From: Alphaproteobacteria bacterium
Lineage (GTDB): Bacteria; Pseudomonadota; Alphaproteobacteria; Rickettsiales; VGDC01
Length of the DNA stretch: 36,260 nucleotides
Direction: 5' to 3'
NCBI GenBank assembly: GCA_022450665.1
Contig: JAKUPQ010000018.1
Span: 1-36,260 of the forward strand
The translations under genes were made by a program, and so were the position numbers. Positions 29,271-33,788 of the stretch are shown here, piece after piece. Position 1 is the stretch's first letter; each line of letters begins with the position of its first letter. The notes beneath the pieces were generated by a model. It was not told the DNA's origin, did not search any database, and was given only the letters and a program-made list of their open reading frames with translations.

Positions 29271-30023
29271 GTGACTCTTCGCCGCAGAGTATGGCTTTCA
29301 CTGGATATGAGTAGCAATTCCGGTATACTGACTACGGCGAATAAGCTTATATTTATCTTAATTTTTGTTGGGCTTGCCGCACAAATTTTAGAAACAGAGC
29401 CACAACTAGCGGATGCTTATACTAAGGGCTTTCTGGTTGCTGAATATATATTGATGGTTATTTTTACCATAGAATATATGTTGCGTGTGTGGAGCATTCC
29501 TGAAAATCCCGAATATATAGGGAAACACGGGCGATTGCGGTATTTGGGCAGCAAATGGGCAATCATCGACCTTATAGCAATTATTCCCTCCTACCTTATG
29601 TTTTTATCTTTTGATTTGGTATGGTTGCGCACATTGCGCGTATTGCGTCTGCTTAAATTAATGCAATTCAGTGCCTTTGGGGGCGCTTTTTGGATTATTG
29701 GCCGTGCCGTGCGTGAAAAAGCATTTGAACTCAGTGCCACCTTTGCCATTGCCATTGCGTTACTTTTATTTTCTGCCACCTGCCTCTATTTTATCGAAGG
29801 CGATTTGCAGCCAGAAGTATTTGGCAGTATTCCCCGCGCTATGTGGTGGAGTGTCGCTACATTGACCACAGTAGGTTATGGAGATGTGTATCCTGTTACA
29901 GCTTTAGGACGTATATTTGCTGGATTTACAGCGATGATTGGTATTGGAATAATTGCGATGCCCACAGGTATTTTAGCCGCTGCACTGAGCAATGCTTTCA
30001 GTAAAGAAAACCGCGAAAAATAA
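29271..30023 (+). CDS. Voltage-gated potassium channel family protein
   Basis: A six-helix cation channel of 250 residues. S1 is at about 25-45. S2/S3 lie around 54-73 and 97-115. The S4 voltage-sensor helix WLRTLRVLRLLKLMQF (118-133) has arginine or lysine at every third or fourth position. S5 is at about 155-175, the pore helix around 187-198, the selectivity filter is TTVGYGD (199-205), and S6 is at about 214-240. The TVGYG filter indicates K+ selectivity. The GTG start, one base after the sucB stop, gives the usual LRRRVW amphipathic N-terminus. No cytoplasmic ligand-binding domain is present. It is embedded between sucB and lpdA, an unusual partner for a TCA operon. Confidence 0.88.
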   Translation: MTLRRRVWLSLDMSSNSGILTTANKLIFILIFVGLAAQILETEPQLADAYTKGFLVAEYILMVIFTIEYMLRVWSIPENPEYIGKHGRLRYLGSKWAIIDLIAIIPSYLMFLSFDLVWLRTLRVLRLLKLMQFSAFGGAFWIIGRAVREKAFELSATFAIAIALLLFSATCLYFIEGDLQPEVFGSIPRAMWWSVATLTTVGYGDVYPVTALGRIFAGFTAMIGIGIIAMPTGILAAALSNAFSKENREK

Positions 30024-30097: not shown

Positions 30098-31489
30098 ATG
30101 TCTGAACAATATGATCTTGTAGTAATCGGTGGTGGTCCTGCCGGATATGTGGCCGCTATCCGCGCAGCACAGCTGGGCATGAAAACCGCTTGTGTCGAAA
30201 AACGTGGCGCGCTTGGTGGCACCTGTCTTAATGTGGGCTGCATACCTTCTAAAGCATTGCTGGAATCGTCTAAGCTATTTGCCGAAGTAAAATTACATGG
30301 AGCAGCGCATGGCGTAAAAACCAGCAAGCTCGAAGTGGATTTGTCAGCAATGATGGCGCAAAAATCTACCGCAGTGCAAGGCCTCACTCAAGGCATTGAA
30401 ATGTTGTTCAAGAAGAACAAAGTCACCTACGTGCAGGCAGCGGGCGAAATAGTGGACGCTAACACTGTTAAAGCTGGCAAAGAGACGCTATCTGCAAAAA
30501 ATATCCTCATCGCTACCGGATCAGACGTGATGGCGCTCCCGGGTGTGGAGATTGACGAGAAAACCATTGTGTCTTCTACCGGCGCACTCACGCTCGATAA
30601 AATCCCAGAAAATATGGTGGTTATAGGCGGCGGAGTCATTGGTTTAGAGATGGGGTCGGTGTGGAGCCGTCTGGGCGCTAAAGTTACCGTGGTGGAGTTT
30701 CTGGATCGTATAATTCCTGGTATGGACAACGATATTGCAAAATCCTATCAAAAGGTTTTGGAAAAACAAGGCTTTACCTTCAAGCTTGAAACAAAGGTGA
30801 CAAAAGCGGAGAAAAAAGGCAAAGCGGTTACGCTAACCATGGAGCCAAGCAAGGGCGGCAAAGCAGAAACCATGAAAGCCGATGTGGTATTGGTGGCAAT
30901 TGGTCGTAAGCCTTATACAGAAGGCTTAGGTTTGGATAAAGCCGGTGTGAAACTAGACAGCCGTGGACGGATTGAAATTAATGGTCATTTCCAAACTAAT
31001 ATAAATAATATTTATGCGGTGGGCGATGTGGTAGTTGGCCCCATGCTGGCGCATAAAGCCGAAGAAGAAGGCATCGCCGCTGTTGAAAACATGGCCGGAC
31101 AAGCAGGGCATGTAGACCATAATCTTGTGCCGAGCGTTATCTACACATGGCCAGAAGTGGCGGCAGTTGGCAAAACCGAAGAGCAACTTAAAGAAGCGGG
31201 TATAAACTATAAAGCCGGAAAATTCACTTTTATGGCGAATAGCCGAGGGCGTGCTATAGGCCAAACCGATGGTTTTGTTAAAATTCTGGCAGATGCAAAA
31301 ACCGATAAAGTTTTGGGCGCACATATTCTTGGCCCCGATGCCGGAACGCTGATAGCAGAAGTAGTAGCGGTAATGGAATTTGGCGGTGCTGCAGAAGACA
31401 TTGCCCGCACATGTCACGCGCATCCAACCTTAAACGAAGCGGTGAAAGAAGCTGCCTTGGCCGTTGATAAACGCGCAATTCACTCTTAA
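30098..31489 (+). CDS. lpdA: Dihydrolipoyl dehydrogenase (E3)
   Basis: The flavoprotein E3 reoxidises dihydrolipoamide of the 2-oxoglutarate (and usually pyruvate) dehydrogenase complexes with NAD+. FAD binding: [22 protein letters not shown]. Redox-active disulfide: [16 protein letters not shown] (C43, C48). NAD binding: [48 protein letters not shown] and the catalytic C-terminal [16 protein letters not shown] follow. The length of 463 residues is normal. AGGAAACTTTT precedes the ATG. Its position at the end of the sucAB block makes it the probable E3 of that complex. No terminator directly follows the stop; the nearest forward one lies beyond the cassettes at 32445. Confidence 0.97.
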
Positions 31490-31513
31490 CATAACGTAAT
31501 TTACCCCATAAAT

Positions 31514-31564
31514 GGCAACACCCCAGTTTTTTCCGCCCGAGCGGAGAAAAAAGGGGTGTGTGCC
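31514..31564 (-). repeat. Two-part palindrome of cassette A
   Basis: The outer stem GGCAACACCCC (31514-31524) pairs with 31553-31564 with one bulged base. The inner stem TCCGC (31532-31536) / GCGGA (31541-31545) has loop CCGA and adjoining T/A runs. It starts 16 bp after the small gene's stop. It may end transcription, but no T tract follows the outer stem. Confidence 0.7.
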
Positions 31565-31580
31565 GTTGCGCTCGACCTGG

Positions 31581-31850
31581 TCAGAGGAGGTTGAACAACC
31601 GCCAGGTGAGGAAGATCCCGATGACGCAGAACGCTGTGGCGATCTTGAGCGCGTGGCTCTTGTCCTTGCCGTTGGGCCACTTGCGGTACTTGATGACGAG
31701 CTTGGTCGCGAGGACGAAGCAGCCAGTGATCACGGTACCGAAGATGGTGACGAGCGCGAGCCTGTCGGGCGCGTACGCGATGAAGGCGAGCAGAGCGACG
31801 ATGGAGACGAGGCTGAGCCCCTTGAGTGCCAACTGCTTGCGCGTACTCAT
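31581..31850 (-). CDS. Small three-helix membrane protein, cassette A
   Basis: I do not recognise the family. The 89-residue protein (MSTRKQLALKGLSLVS...) has three predicted membrane helices: about 10-27 (SLVSIVALLAFIAY), 31-53 (LALVTIFGTVITGCFVLATKLVI) and 68-87 (ALKIATAFCVIGIFLTW). A basic loop (KYRKWPNGKDKSH) separates helices 2 and 3. The start is fixed by GGAGG eight bases upstream. Codon use is unlike all neighbours: every Lys is AAG, every Ile ATC and every Phe TTC, with heavy use of CTC and GTC. That points to origin in a GC-rich genome or another expression regime. It is convergent with lpdA. Confidence 0.75.
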   Translation of the reverse strand: MSTRKQLALKGLSLVSIVALLAFIAYAPDRLALVTIFGTVITGCFVLATKLVIKYRKWPNGKDKSHALKIATAFCVIGIFLTWRLFNLL

Positions 31851-31951
31851 AATAACTTCCTCCAAAGGAGAGAGTGTACCAAACACGGTTGTGTAAGGAT
31901 AATACAGGTGCTTTAAAAGCAGCTAAAATTCAAAAAAGAATAAAAAACATT
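31851..31951 (-). promoter_or_regulatory. Conserved leader/promoter of cassette A
   Basis: A TATTAT -10-like box (31899-31904, minus strand) lies about 50 bp before the ATG. The ribosome-binding site GGAGG can pair with CTCC just before it (CTCC-TTT-GGAG), so it may be partly sequestered. Most of this sequence is repeated in front of the cassette B gene. Confidence 0.55.
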
Positions 31952-31952
31952 T

Positions 31953-31972
31953 ATATAGTATCAGCGCTATAT
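31953..31972. repeat. Small inverted repeat between the cassettes
   Basis: ATATAG, 8 bp, CTATAT directly follows the repeated part of the cassette A leader. The sequence from 31952 to about 31992 has no counterpart beside cassette B. Its role is unknown. Confidence 0.35.
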
Positions 31973-32013
31973 GACAGTTTTGTGACAGGTAATGAATTTT
32001 TACTCCCAGAAAT

Positions 32014-32069
32014 GGCAACGCCCCAGTCTCTTTTCCGCCCGAGCGGAGAAGAAAAAATGGGGCGTTGCC
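32014..32069 (-). repeat. Two-part palindrome of cassette B
   Basis: The outer stem GGCAACGCCCC (32014-32024) pairs perfectly with GGGGCGTTGCC (32059-32069). The inner stem TCTTTTCCGC / GCGGAGAAGA (one G-T pair) has loop CCGA. Relative to cassette A, an A-T pair of the outer stem is G-C here, a compensatory change. Confidence 0.75.
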
Positions 32070-32074
32070 GGTGA

Positions 32075-32338
32075 TCAGCTTGTCTCGATCATCCATTGGA
32101 TGAATGGTATGCTGACCGTGAGTGACACAGCGAAGAAGATCAGCCATGCGTCGAGCTTGTCGAGTTCCTTGGTGTGGCGTACCTCGTAGATCATCCATGA
32201 TGCGGTGGAAAAAGTGCCAGCGATCATGAGGATGAAGAGCAGGTAGCCGATCTTGTCGTTGAACATGGGGAAGGTGACCACCATGACGGCGAGGATCGGC
32301 AGAGACGTGAGGAACGCGTACTTCGTGGACTTGCTCAC
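32075..32338 (-). CDS. Small three-helix membrane protein, cassette B
   Basis: I do not recognise the family. The 87-residue protein has three predicted helices at about 7-25 (YAFLTSLPILAVMVVTFPMF), 29-51 (GYLLFILMIAGTFSTASWMIY) and 64-83 (AWLIFFAVSLTVSIPFIQWMI). A charged loop (EVRHTKELDKLD) lies between helices 2 and 3. This is the same layout and length as the cassette A protein but without obvious residue identity. The start is GTG at 32338 with GGAGG five bases upstream; an in-frame start at 32419 would lie inside the conserved leader. All Lys codons are AAG and most third positions are G or C, unlike the surrounding genes. Confidence 0.75.
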   Translation of the reverse strand: MSKSTKYAFLTSLPILAVMVVTFPMFNDKIGYLLFILMIAGTFSTASWMIYEVRHTKELDKLDAWLIFFAVSLTVSIPFIQWMIETS

Positions 32339-32437
32339 AACTGCCTCCAAAGGGAGAGAGTGTACCAAACACGGTTGTGTAAGGATAATACAGGAGCTTA
32401 GAACACAACTAAAATTCAAAAAAGAATAAAAAACATT
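32339..32437 (-). promoter_or_regulatory. Conserved leader/promoter of cassette B
   Basis: The same 42-bp and 29-bp blocks as in cassette A, with TATTAT at 32385-32390 (minus strand). The segment between the two blocks differs in sequence but keeps its length. Confidence 0.55.
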
Positions 32438-32444
32438 AAGATTA

Positions 32445-32467
32445 TAACGCAGAAGCGTTACTTTTTT
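32445..32467 (+). terminator. Forward terminator, probably displaced from lpdA
   Basis: TAACGC-AGAA-GCGTTA followed by C and six T: a perfect 6-bp stem reading on the plus strand. The nearest upstream plus-strand gene is lpdA, 955 bp away across both cassettes. Confidence 0.75.
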
Positions 32468-32499
32468 ATTACGAAGTCATTTAAAAAATTAAACAAATA

Positions 32500-32561: not shown

Positions 32562-33788
32562 TTAAGCGGCCTTAACCTGCATTTCATTACTGAGGCGCTC
32601 ATTAAGGCAATCTAAAAACTGCTTGGTGTTCAGATGCTGTTGTTTGCTTCCTACCAACAGCGCTAGGTCTTTGGTCATATGGCCGGCTTCAACCGCCTCG
32701 ATACATACGCGTTCGAGGGTATCGGCAAAGCGCACCAATTCGTTGTTGCCATCAAACTGGCCACGATAGCGCAAGCCATTTGTCCACGCAAAAATAGAGG
32801 CGATGGGGTTGGTGCTGGTCTCTTTACCTTGTTGATGCAGTCGGTAATGGCGGGTGACGGTGCCGTGGGCGGCTTCCGCTTCAACGGTTTTTCCGTCAGG
32901 AGTCATTAGTACCGATGTCATTAGTCCGAGTGAACCAAAGCCCTGCGCTACAATATCGGATTGCACATCCCCGTCGTAGTTTTTGCATGCCCACACAAAG
33001 CCACCATGGGATTTAATGGCATAGGCTACCAAATCATCAATCAAGCGATGCTCATAATCCAGACCGGCGGCATCAAACTTAGATTTAAATTCTTCGTCAT
33101 ATATTTTTTGGAATATATTTTTAAAGCGGCCATCATAGGTTTTTAAAATGGTGTTTTTGGTGGATAAATACACCGGATAGCCCATTTGCAATCCATAATT
33201 GAAGCTGGAACGTGCAAACCCTTCGATAGATTCATCAAGATTATACATGCTCATAGCTACCCCGCTGGAGGGGCAATCGAACACTTCGCGCTCTATCACT
33301 TCACCGCCGTCTTCGGGAACAAATTTGATAGAAAGCTTGCCCGCCCCCGGCATCACAAAATCGGTGGCGCGATATTGGTCTCCAAAAGCGTGGCGGCCTA
33401 CAATGATGGGTTTTTCCCAACCGGGCACATAGCGCGGAATATTTTTACAAATGATGGGCGCACGAAAAATTGTGCCATCAAGAATATTGCGGATAGTGCC
33501 ATTTGGAGAGCGCCACATTTTTTTGAGACCAAACTCCTCTACACGACCTTCATCAGGGGTAATGGTGGCACATTTCACACCCACGCCATATTGTTTGATG
33601 GCATTGGCGGCATCGATGGTAATCTGATCGTTGGTTTCATCACGCATTTGGACAGAGAGATCAAAATATTTCAAATCGATATCCAAATACGGCAAAATTA
33701 GTTTCTCGCGGATAAACGACCAGATGATGCGGGTCATTTCATCGCCATCCAGCTCAACCACTGGATTTTGTACAGATATTTTACTCAT
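32562..33788 (-). CDS. icd: NADP-dependent isocitrate dehydrogenase
   Basis: Icd oxidatively decarboxylates isocitrate to 2-oxoglutarate, the substrate of the SucAB-LpdA complex encoded next door. It is of the eukaryote-like homodimeric NADP class common in alphaproteobacteria. Motifs are [14 protein letters not shown] at the start, [31 protein letters not shown], the basic [10 protein letters not shown]-like [43 protein letters not shown] (metal-binding Asp residues), and [12 protein letters not shown] with the NADP-contacting His/Thr. The length is 408 residues. It is monocistronic with a terminator. A moderate promoter (TTGAAT, 17 bp, TAGGAT) can be read on the minus strand in the 76-bp gap upstream. 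Confidence 0.97.

Follow-up and report, generated by a model that had tools for sequence, protein, structure and literature searches.

Two small genes lie in tandem between lpdA (plus strand, ending at 31489) and icd (minus strand, ending at 32562), each set in nearly the same surroundings, and the question raised by this locus is why the surroundings are shared while the genes differ. The answer considered most probable (roughly 0.55, as judged from sequence) is that the two units, U1 and U2, belong to a regulon, scattered over the genome and specific to its lineage, in which a PhoB-type promoter and a putative translation-gating leader precede fast-changing, mostly envelope-directed proteins. 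The window, which is the whole stretch of DNA analyzed, is contig C18 (36,260 bp) of a 99% complete genome of 2.48 Mb in 154 contigs (G000). From its gene content and the genome sizes of its relatives, G000 is taken to be alphaproteobacterial and probably of the Rickettsiales. G001, which is alone in the collection in belonging to the same family, was used for comparison.

Two tandem units between lpdA and icd

A 93-nt direct repeat was found at 31864-31956 and 32350-32442 (90% identity, spacing 486). The 42-nt (GGAGAGAGTGTACC...ATACAGG) and 29-nt (CTAAAATTC...AACATT) exact blocks described in an earlier, sequence-only reading of this DNA were present within it. That reading had also described two direct units sharing a leader and a palindrome, which stood except for the orientation: both units are read on the minus strand, so that the leader is 5′ and the palindrome 3′ of each gene (Table 1). 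Similarity of U1 to U2 was z 18 in the leader and z 11.5 in the 3′ region, and only z 2.7 in the coding region (codon-shuffled controls). The core of the 3′ hairpin had two exact genome matches, both in the window, and one with two mismatches; a search of the G000 genome gave no additional near-identical copy of the leader block or the hairpin core. Hairpin folding energies were compared with those of shuffled sequences (z -5.1 for U1 and -7.4 for U2, rounded). Elsewhere in the window, between sucB and lpdA, a voltage-gated potassium-channel-like gene was seen at 29271-30023; it was not found in the matching G001 stretch.

The two genes encode differing proteins of 89 and 87 aa with three hydrophobic segments each, and the three-helix membrane proteins proposed earlier were also obtained in single-sequence structure models, with helices predicted at 4-25, 28-54 and 61-88 in U1 (pLDDT 73) and at 3-22, 29-56 and 59-86 in U2 (pLDDT 70). 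BLASTP of one protein against the other gave no significant similarity, a fold search with the U1 model gave no match with E<1, the U1 cargo had no homologue in the species genomes, and the two units searched as DNA had no match in plasmids or phages.

Table 1. Features of the two units in the window (positions are those of the whole stretch)
Feature	Position	Strand	Basis
U2 PhoB-type box, degenerate (GTAATAAAAAAGTAAC, half-sites 11 nt apart)	32457..32472	-	In register with the perfect U1 and C13 boxes; weak alone
U2 -10 element TATAAT	32441..32446	-	Sequence; register as in other units
U2 leader RNA, about 98 nt, short form, Shine-Dalgarno hairpin at end	32339..32437	-	Structure models R2 and R3
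U2 hairpin P5, Shine-Dalgarno GGAGG paired with TCTCC	32344..32357	-	Fold
U2 gene, 87-aa orphan membrane protein, GTG start, GC3 0.83	32075..32338	-	No family match, no homologue found
U2 3′ long hairpin, terminator-like, without clear U-run on the minus strand	32014..32069	-	-39.8 kcal/mol, z -7.35; inverted repeat
U1 PhoB-type box CTGTCACAAAACTGTCAT	31971..31988	-	One of two perfect genome matches to CTGTCANNNANCTGTCA
U1 -10 element TACTAT, 10 nt past the box	31955..31960	-	Sequence
U1 leader RNA, about 100 nt, short form	31851..31951	-	84% identity to U2 leader; models R2 and R3
U1 hairpin P5 TCTCC-TTT-GGAGG, Shine-Dalgarno paired	31859..31871	-	Fold
U1 gene, 89-aa orphan membrane protein, ATG start, GC3 0.93	31581..31850	-	No family match, no homologue found
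U1 3′ long hairpin, 25 nt beyond the lpdA stop (lpdA on the opposite strand)	31514..31564	-	-30.5 kcal/mol, z -5.05

Promoter and leader RNA of the unit family

The constant frame with variable small genes that the sequence-only reading saw in this one pair is repeated in some 20 units spread over two genera, at least 9 in G000 and at least 11 in G001 (minimum values from searches and samples). Each has the same plan: a PhoB-type box, a -10 element, a leader RNA of 100-180 nt and one orphan ORF of 50-254 aa. A 68-nt promoter model built from four units identified five further units in G000 (C9, C11, C4 twice and C14); overall it matched 9 units in G000, including the 4 used to train it, and in G001 it matched 8 of 11, the remaining G001 leaders (C6:2797, C262 and C72) being recovered by the structure model. 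Two samples of G000 (280 kb and 317 kb, together 597 kb) were searched, with no match in the first and one chance-level match per model in the second (E 0.87 and 0.78). The exact leader block, from which a cassette family was to be traced, was absent from 84,980 species genomes and from viral contigs, and it is related leaders that were found in the two genera. Brief stretches resembling the leader, seen in genomes elsewhere in the order and class, were judged to be AT-rich chance. In tandem pairs, similarity was z 5-18 in the leader, z 9-18 in the 3′ region for 4 of the 5 pairs and z -0.9 to 3.6 in the ORFs. The 3′ hairpin was common to most tandem pairs (U1/U2, C4a/b, s6a/b and s268a/b) and was not shared between loci, so of the proposed cassette with two constant ends the promoter and leader end stood across loci and the 3′ end did not.

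In the promoter, two GTCA half-sites lie 11 nt apart in place of a -35 element, the -10 element follows 10 nt later, and the conserved block begins directly after the -10. PhoB-activated promoters place the -10 at this same position. Two 11-nt units, directly repeated, make up the PhoB box, whose most conserved motif in E. coli is CTGTCAT (PMC4415409). The two perfect matches to CTGTCANNNANCTGTCA in the G000 genome were at U1 and on contig C13, each before such a unit; the C13 box precedes a small GC-rich ORF, and its leader start resembles that of U1. Three more sites were found with one mismatch, one of which (C1) shows the same arrangement, and the reversed control pattern had no match in the G000 genome at up to one mismatch. 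A box with a correctly spaced -10 was thus present at U1, C13 and C1, the box of U2 being degenerate. TACACT was rejected as the -10 of the units, since it falls inside the leader RNA.

In other genomes of the order, this box also stands before unrelated genes, with no leader RNA behind it. Judged by their sequence, VirB2/TrbC-like and csrA-like genes are among these; the VirB2/TrbC-pilin-like ones lie behind the box at L072 2549-3129 (a tandem pair) and L071 3038-3570. Because of these leaderless boxes before other genes, the element is labeled PhoB-type and is not regarded as a proven PhoB site.

The s92, s268a and s167 leaders, folded separately, took the same shape. P1 (for example CTGTTTCC/GGAAACAG and GCGTTTTC/GAAAACGC) closes P2 (ATTC...GAAT) and P3, and is followed by P4 (ACCG...CGGT in most leaders, ACTG/CAGT in s6b) and by P5, the last hairpin, which holds the Shine-Dalgarno sequence (ACATC-TGAAAG-GATGT). 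With 14 leaders aligned, compensatory changes were counted in 18 of 26 pairs, a number inflated by the fitting of the alignment to the structure model. Covariation was 0.311 compared with 0.171 (sd 0.015) in shuffled versions, none of 500 shuffles reaching the observed value, and slid versions gave at most 0.084. A model from five G001 leaders matched held-out members, including C14 in the other genus (E 3.9e-8), and these matches are stronger evidence for a leader RNA than the covariation count. On this comparative evidence, the leader is a structured RNA with a predicted, conserved fold. Of the order's 88 genomes searched, G000 and G001 alone gave E<1e-3 with the final model, and no Rfam family matched the leader above a gathering score.

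The window leaders are a short, degenerate form, in which no P1 can be traced, though P2, P5 and a reduced P4 can; the leaders of C9, C11, C13 and C4b are likewise divergent. R2, built only from G001, matched the U2 leader over its full length, weakly, at 14.1 bits and the U1 leader, also weakly, at 12.8 bits. R3 gave 34.8 and 34.6 bits, respectively, with U2 and U1 in its training set. Both leaders fold only slightly better than shuffled sequences (z -1.6 and -1.2).

Two G001 leaders (L088 1501-1675 and L089 603-764) are longer, with extra leader sequence that in s262 lies within P2. In another family of the order, L080 1501-1613 (G011) is a possible distant leader, with a 122-aa ORF behind it of GC3 only 0.41; it matched an earlier model at E 0.0054, and P4 and P5 were plausible by eye. 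An R2 match in G046 was rejected, as by eye it had neither box nor leader features.

Orphan genes at fixed loci

Of 20 cargo ORFs (50-254 aa), 16 encode hydrophobic segments, from one to five each, and four encode soluble proteins. Searches of Pfam (with part of the twenty), PHROGs, NCBIfam and PADLOC, the set of libraries differing from cargo to cargo, gave nothing above cut-off for the cargoes scanned, and those searched against viral contigs, phages, plasmids and the genomes of the order had no homologues. The earlier suggestion of membrane-acting or defence-like cargo was borne out in its first part, the products being mostly membrane or secreted proteins, and found no backing in its second, a PADLOC scan of U1 and U2 giving no match to a known anti-phage defence model. 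The only recognizable homologous cargo pair was C13 and s268a (27% over 114 aa, E 7e-6). Frame-2 matches of cargo to cargo in tblastx were discarded as an artefact of GC3 periodicity.

Cargo GC3 was 0.82 in both genera, compared with 0.45 in G000 host ORFs (n = 221) and 0.67 in G001 host ORFs (n = 32), the latter a small background chosen by ORF length that may include some wrong frames. Most codon preferences agreed between G000 and G001 cargoes (CTC over CTG, 0.52 and 0.55; ATC, 0.90 and 0.96; AAC, 0.96 and 0.94; AAG, 0.88 and 0.88), and CGA and AGG were raised in both. AT-rich octamers were rarer in cargoes than in synonymous shuffles (ratios 0.56 and 0.78, z -4.2 and -1.9), host genes having ratios of 0.99 and 0.87. 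Ribosomal genes, sought as a codon-usage yardstick, were not found in the sampled stretches. Such usage would have one of two causes, a shared pool from which the ORFs were drawn or selection at the level of the mRNA.

Several loci could be compared between the genera. C4 (G000) and C76 (G001) are orthologous by tblastx, with flanking identities of 89% for argG and about 85% for a second gene, and carry two tandem units in each genome; their leaders are similar (50-58% identity, z about 5), and the similarity of their ORFs does not clearly exceed that of shuffled controls (z 0 to 1.8). C14 (G000) and C6 (G001) have in common two neighboring genes, named by eye as acyltransferase-like (75%) and hydrolase-like (about 58%), and the C14 ORF encodes an 89-aa membrane protein, those of C6 soluble proteins of 143 and 98 aa. 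C13 and s268, which hold the homologous cargoes, have upstream genes that are similar by eye. Leader-bearing units at the same loci with differing ORFs make the units, and not the ORFs, a stable chromosomal feature, and their fixed places in both genera argue for vertical inheritance of the frame. The fast change of the ORFs rests on few comparisons, two genera being known. At the G001 lpdA-icd site both neighbors are kept (78% and 83%), with no unit and other small genes; the gap there (L133 2921-4038) was read by eye as encoding a secreted protein rich in His and another with one helix.

Competing explanations and known parallels

In the regulon favored here, a regulator of the PhoB/OmpR family would recruit polymerase and turn transcription on, phosphate starvation being the first guess for the signal. 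The transcript would start near the beginning of the leader RNA, which would fold into P1 with the enclosed P2 and P3, then P4 and P5. P5 may restrict or time access to the Shine-Dalgarno sequence until it is opened, for which a ligand, a protein, temperature or a small RNA are candidates. The leader, the strong 3′ hairpin and the AU-poor coding region would stabilize the mRNA, as would suit a long-lived message, and the product would usually go to the membrane or the cell exterior. Selection would keep the frame, and the ORF would change too quickly for its origin to be traced from one genus to the other; tandem duplication would generate new units.

A possible but doubtful alternative, close to the sequence-only reading, is that the units are exchange cassettes, in which recombination replaces the ORF with others drawn from a shared foreign pool, behind a promoter and leader that do not move. 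This would account for unrelated ORFs behind leaders of one family at orthologous loci, for a cargo codon usage that is the same in both genera and foreign to both hosts, and for tandem pairs in which the frame is conserved and the ORF is not. However, no attachment or recombination site, donor or mobile carrier was found at the units, the cargoes searched were without plasmid, phage or viral-contig match, the 3′ ends differ between loci, and the C13 and s268a cargoes, behind similar upstream genes, are still homologous; swapping and very rapid divergence would both be candidate processes. Under exchange, the units might tentatively be pictured as a chromosomal expression platform of fixed loci with a conserved promoter and RNA, at which ORFs with a common foreign codon usage take one another's place time and again, giving lineage-specific envelope proteins. 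That they are not of integron or IS type, neither of which the sequence-only reading recognized in them, was supported as far as tested by the lack of common attC-like sites and of dispersed near-identical copies.

It is improbable that U1 and U2 are simply old paralogues from a tandem duplication and that the shared block is only a promoter, its similarity maintained through selection or gene conversion, and does not act as an RNA. The helix boundaries of the two models are nearly equal, so that U1 and U2 may indeed be old paralogues, the coding similarity is slightly above its codon-shuffled control, and the two leaders fold weakly; the global alignment of the proteins scored 20.5 against a mean of 3.8 in shuffles keeping the hydrophobic pattern, 9% of which reached 20.5. 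Against an explanation by duplication alone stand the covariation across the wider family, the held-out matches of the structure model, and the tandem pair C4a/C4b, whose products are clearly different in kind (a soluble protein of 50 aa and a three-helix protein).

Toxin-antitoxin or phage-exclusion cargo, resembling type I toxins in its small hydrophobic membrane proteins, structured leader, Shine-Dalgarno sequence blocked in a hairpin and tandem copies, is very unlikely: s268b matches SieB weakly, at an E of 0.0017 that is below cut-off, but the cargoes range from 50 to 254 aa and include soluble and secreted proteins, a plus-strand promoter scan for antisense RNA finds only chance-level sites, and the window pair is without PADLOC match. 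Chimeric assembly or contamination, which GC-rich ORFs within a genome of about 46% GC might suggest, is practically negligible, and the locus was found not to be an assembly artefact, since like units occur at several other G000 sites on several contigs and in an independent genome, where the lpdA and icd neighbors are conserved too.

In the regulon proposed here, gene control would evolve apart from its product, the leader being kept and the protein replaced or altered beyond recognition at the same address. With neighboring genes up to 89% identical, this is a tractable setting for the origin of orphan genes, and the codon usage common to both cargo sets, unlinked to host GC, suggests one source for the ORFs or else strong selection on mRNA. 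Mitibacteraceae and Athabascaceae, which are basal Rickettsiales, have larger and more GC-rich genomes than the classical host-bound families (PMC9352585). If the present clade is a basal Rickettsiales family, as its relatives suggest, the cargoes would rank as candidates for interaction proteins from close to where host association arose.

Each component has known parallels; the novelty, within the reach of the searches, lies in fixed loci where hypervariable orphan genes follow a leader RNA that is conserved. A search of the literature on related terms found no like arrangement (weak evidence), and we know of no parallel. The Pho regulon has in common with the units the two 11-nt repeat units with the CTGTCAT core and the position of the -10, but here the genes downstream are orphans, not phosphate genes. 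Like the structured leaders and riboswitch-like cis-regulators of Rfam, the units have a covarying 5′ leader with the Shine-Dalgarno sequence in the last hairpin; unlike them, they fall in no Rfam family and would control dissimilar orphan genes rather than a functional pathway. Integron cassettes also combine a constant expression frame, variable small genes and palindromes, whereas here no attC-type site was seen, the palindromes are not common between loci and the loci are fixed. Type I toxin-antitoxin mRNAs are similar in their small membrane proteins, folded leader and tandem copies, but the products here are too varied in size and type, and no antitoxin RNA was seen. Conotoxins and mycoplasma surface proteins pair a conserved leader with a hypervariable product, and so resemble the units in having a conserved regulatory part before a product that varies; in the units, by contrast, conservation is confined to the non-coding parts and does not extend even to a signal region.
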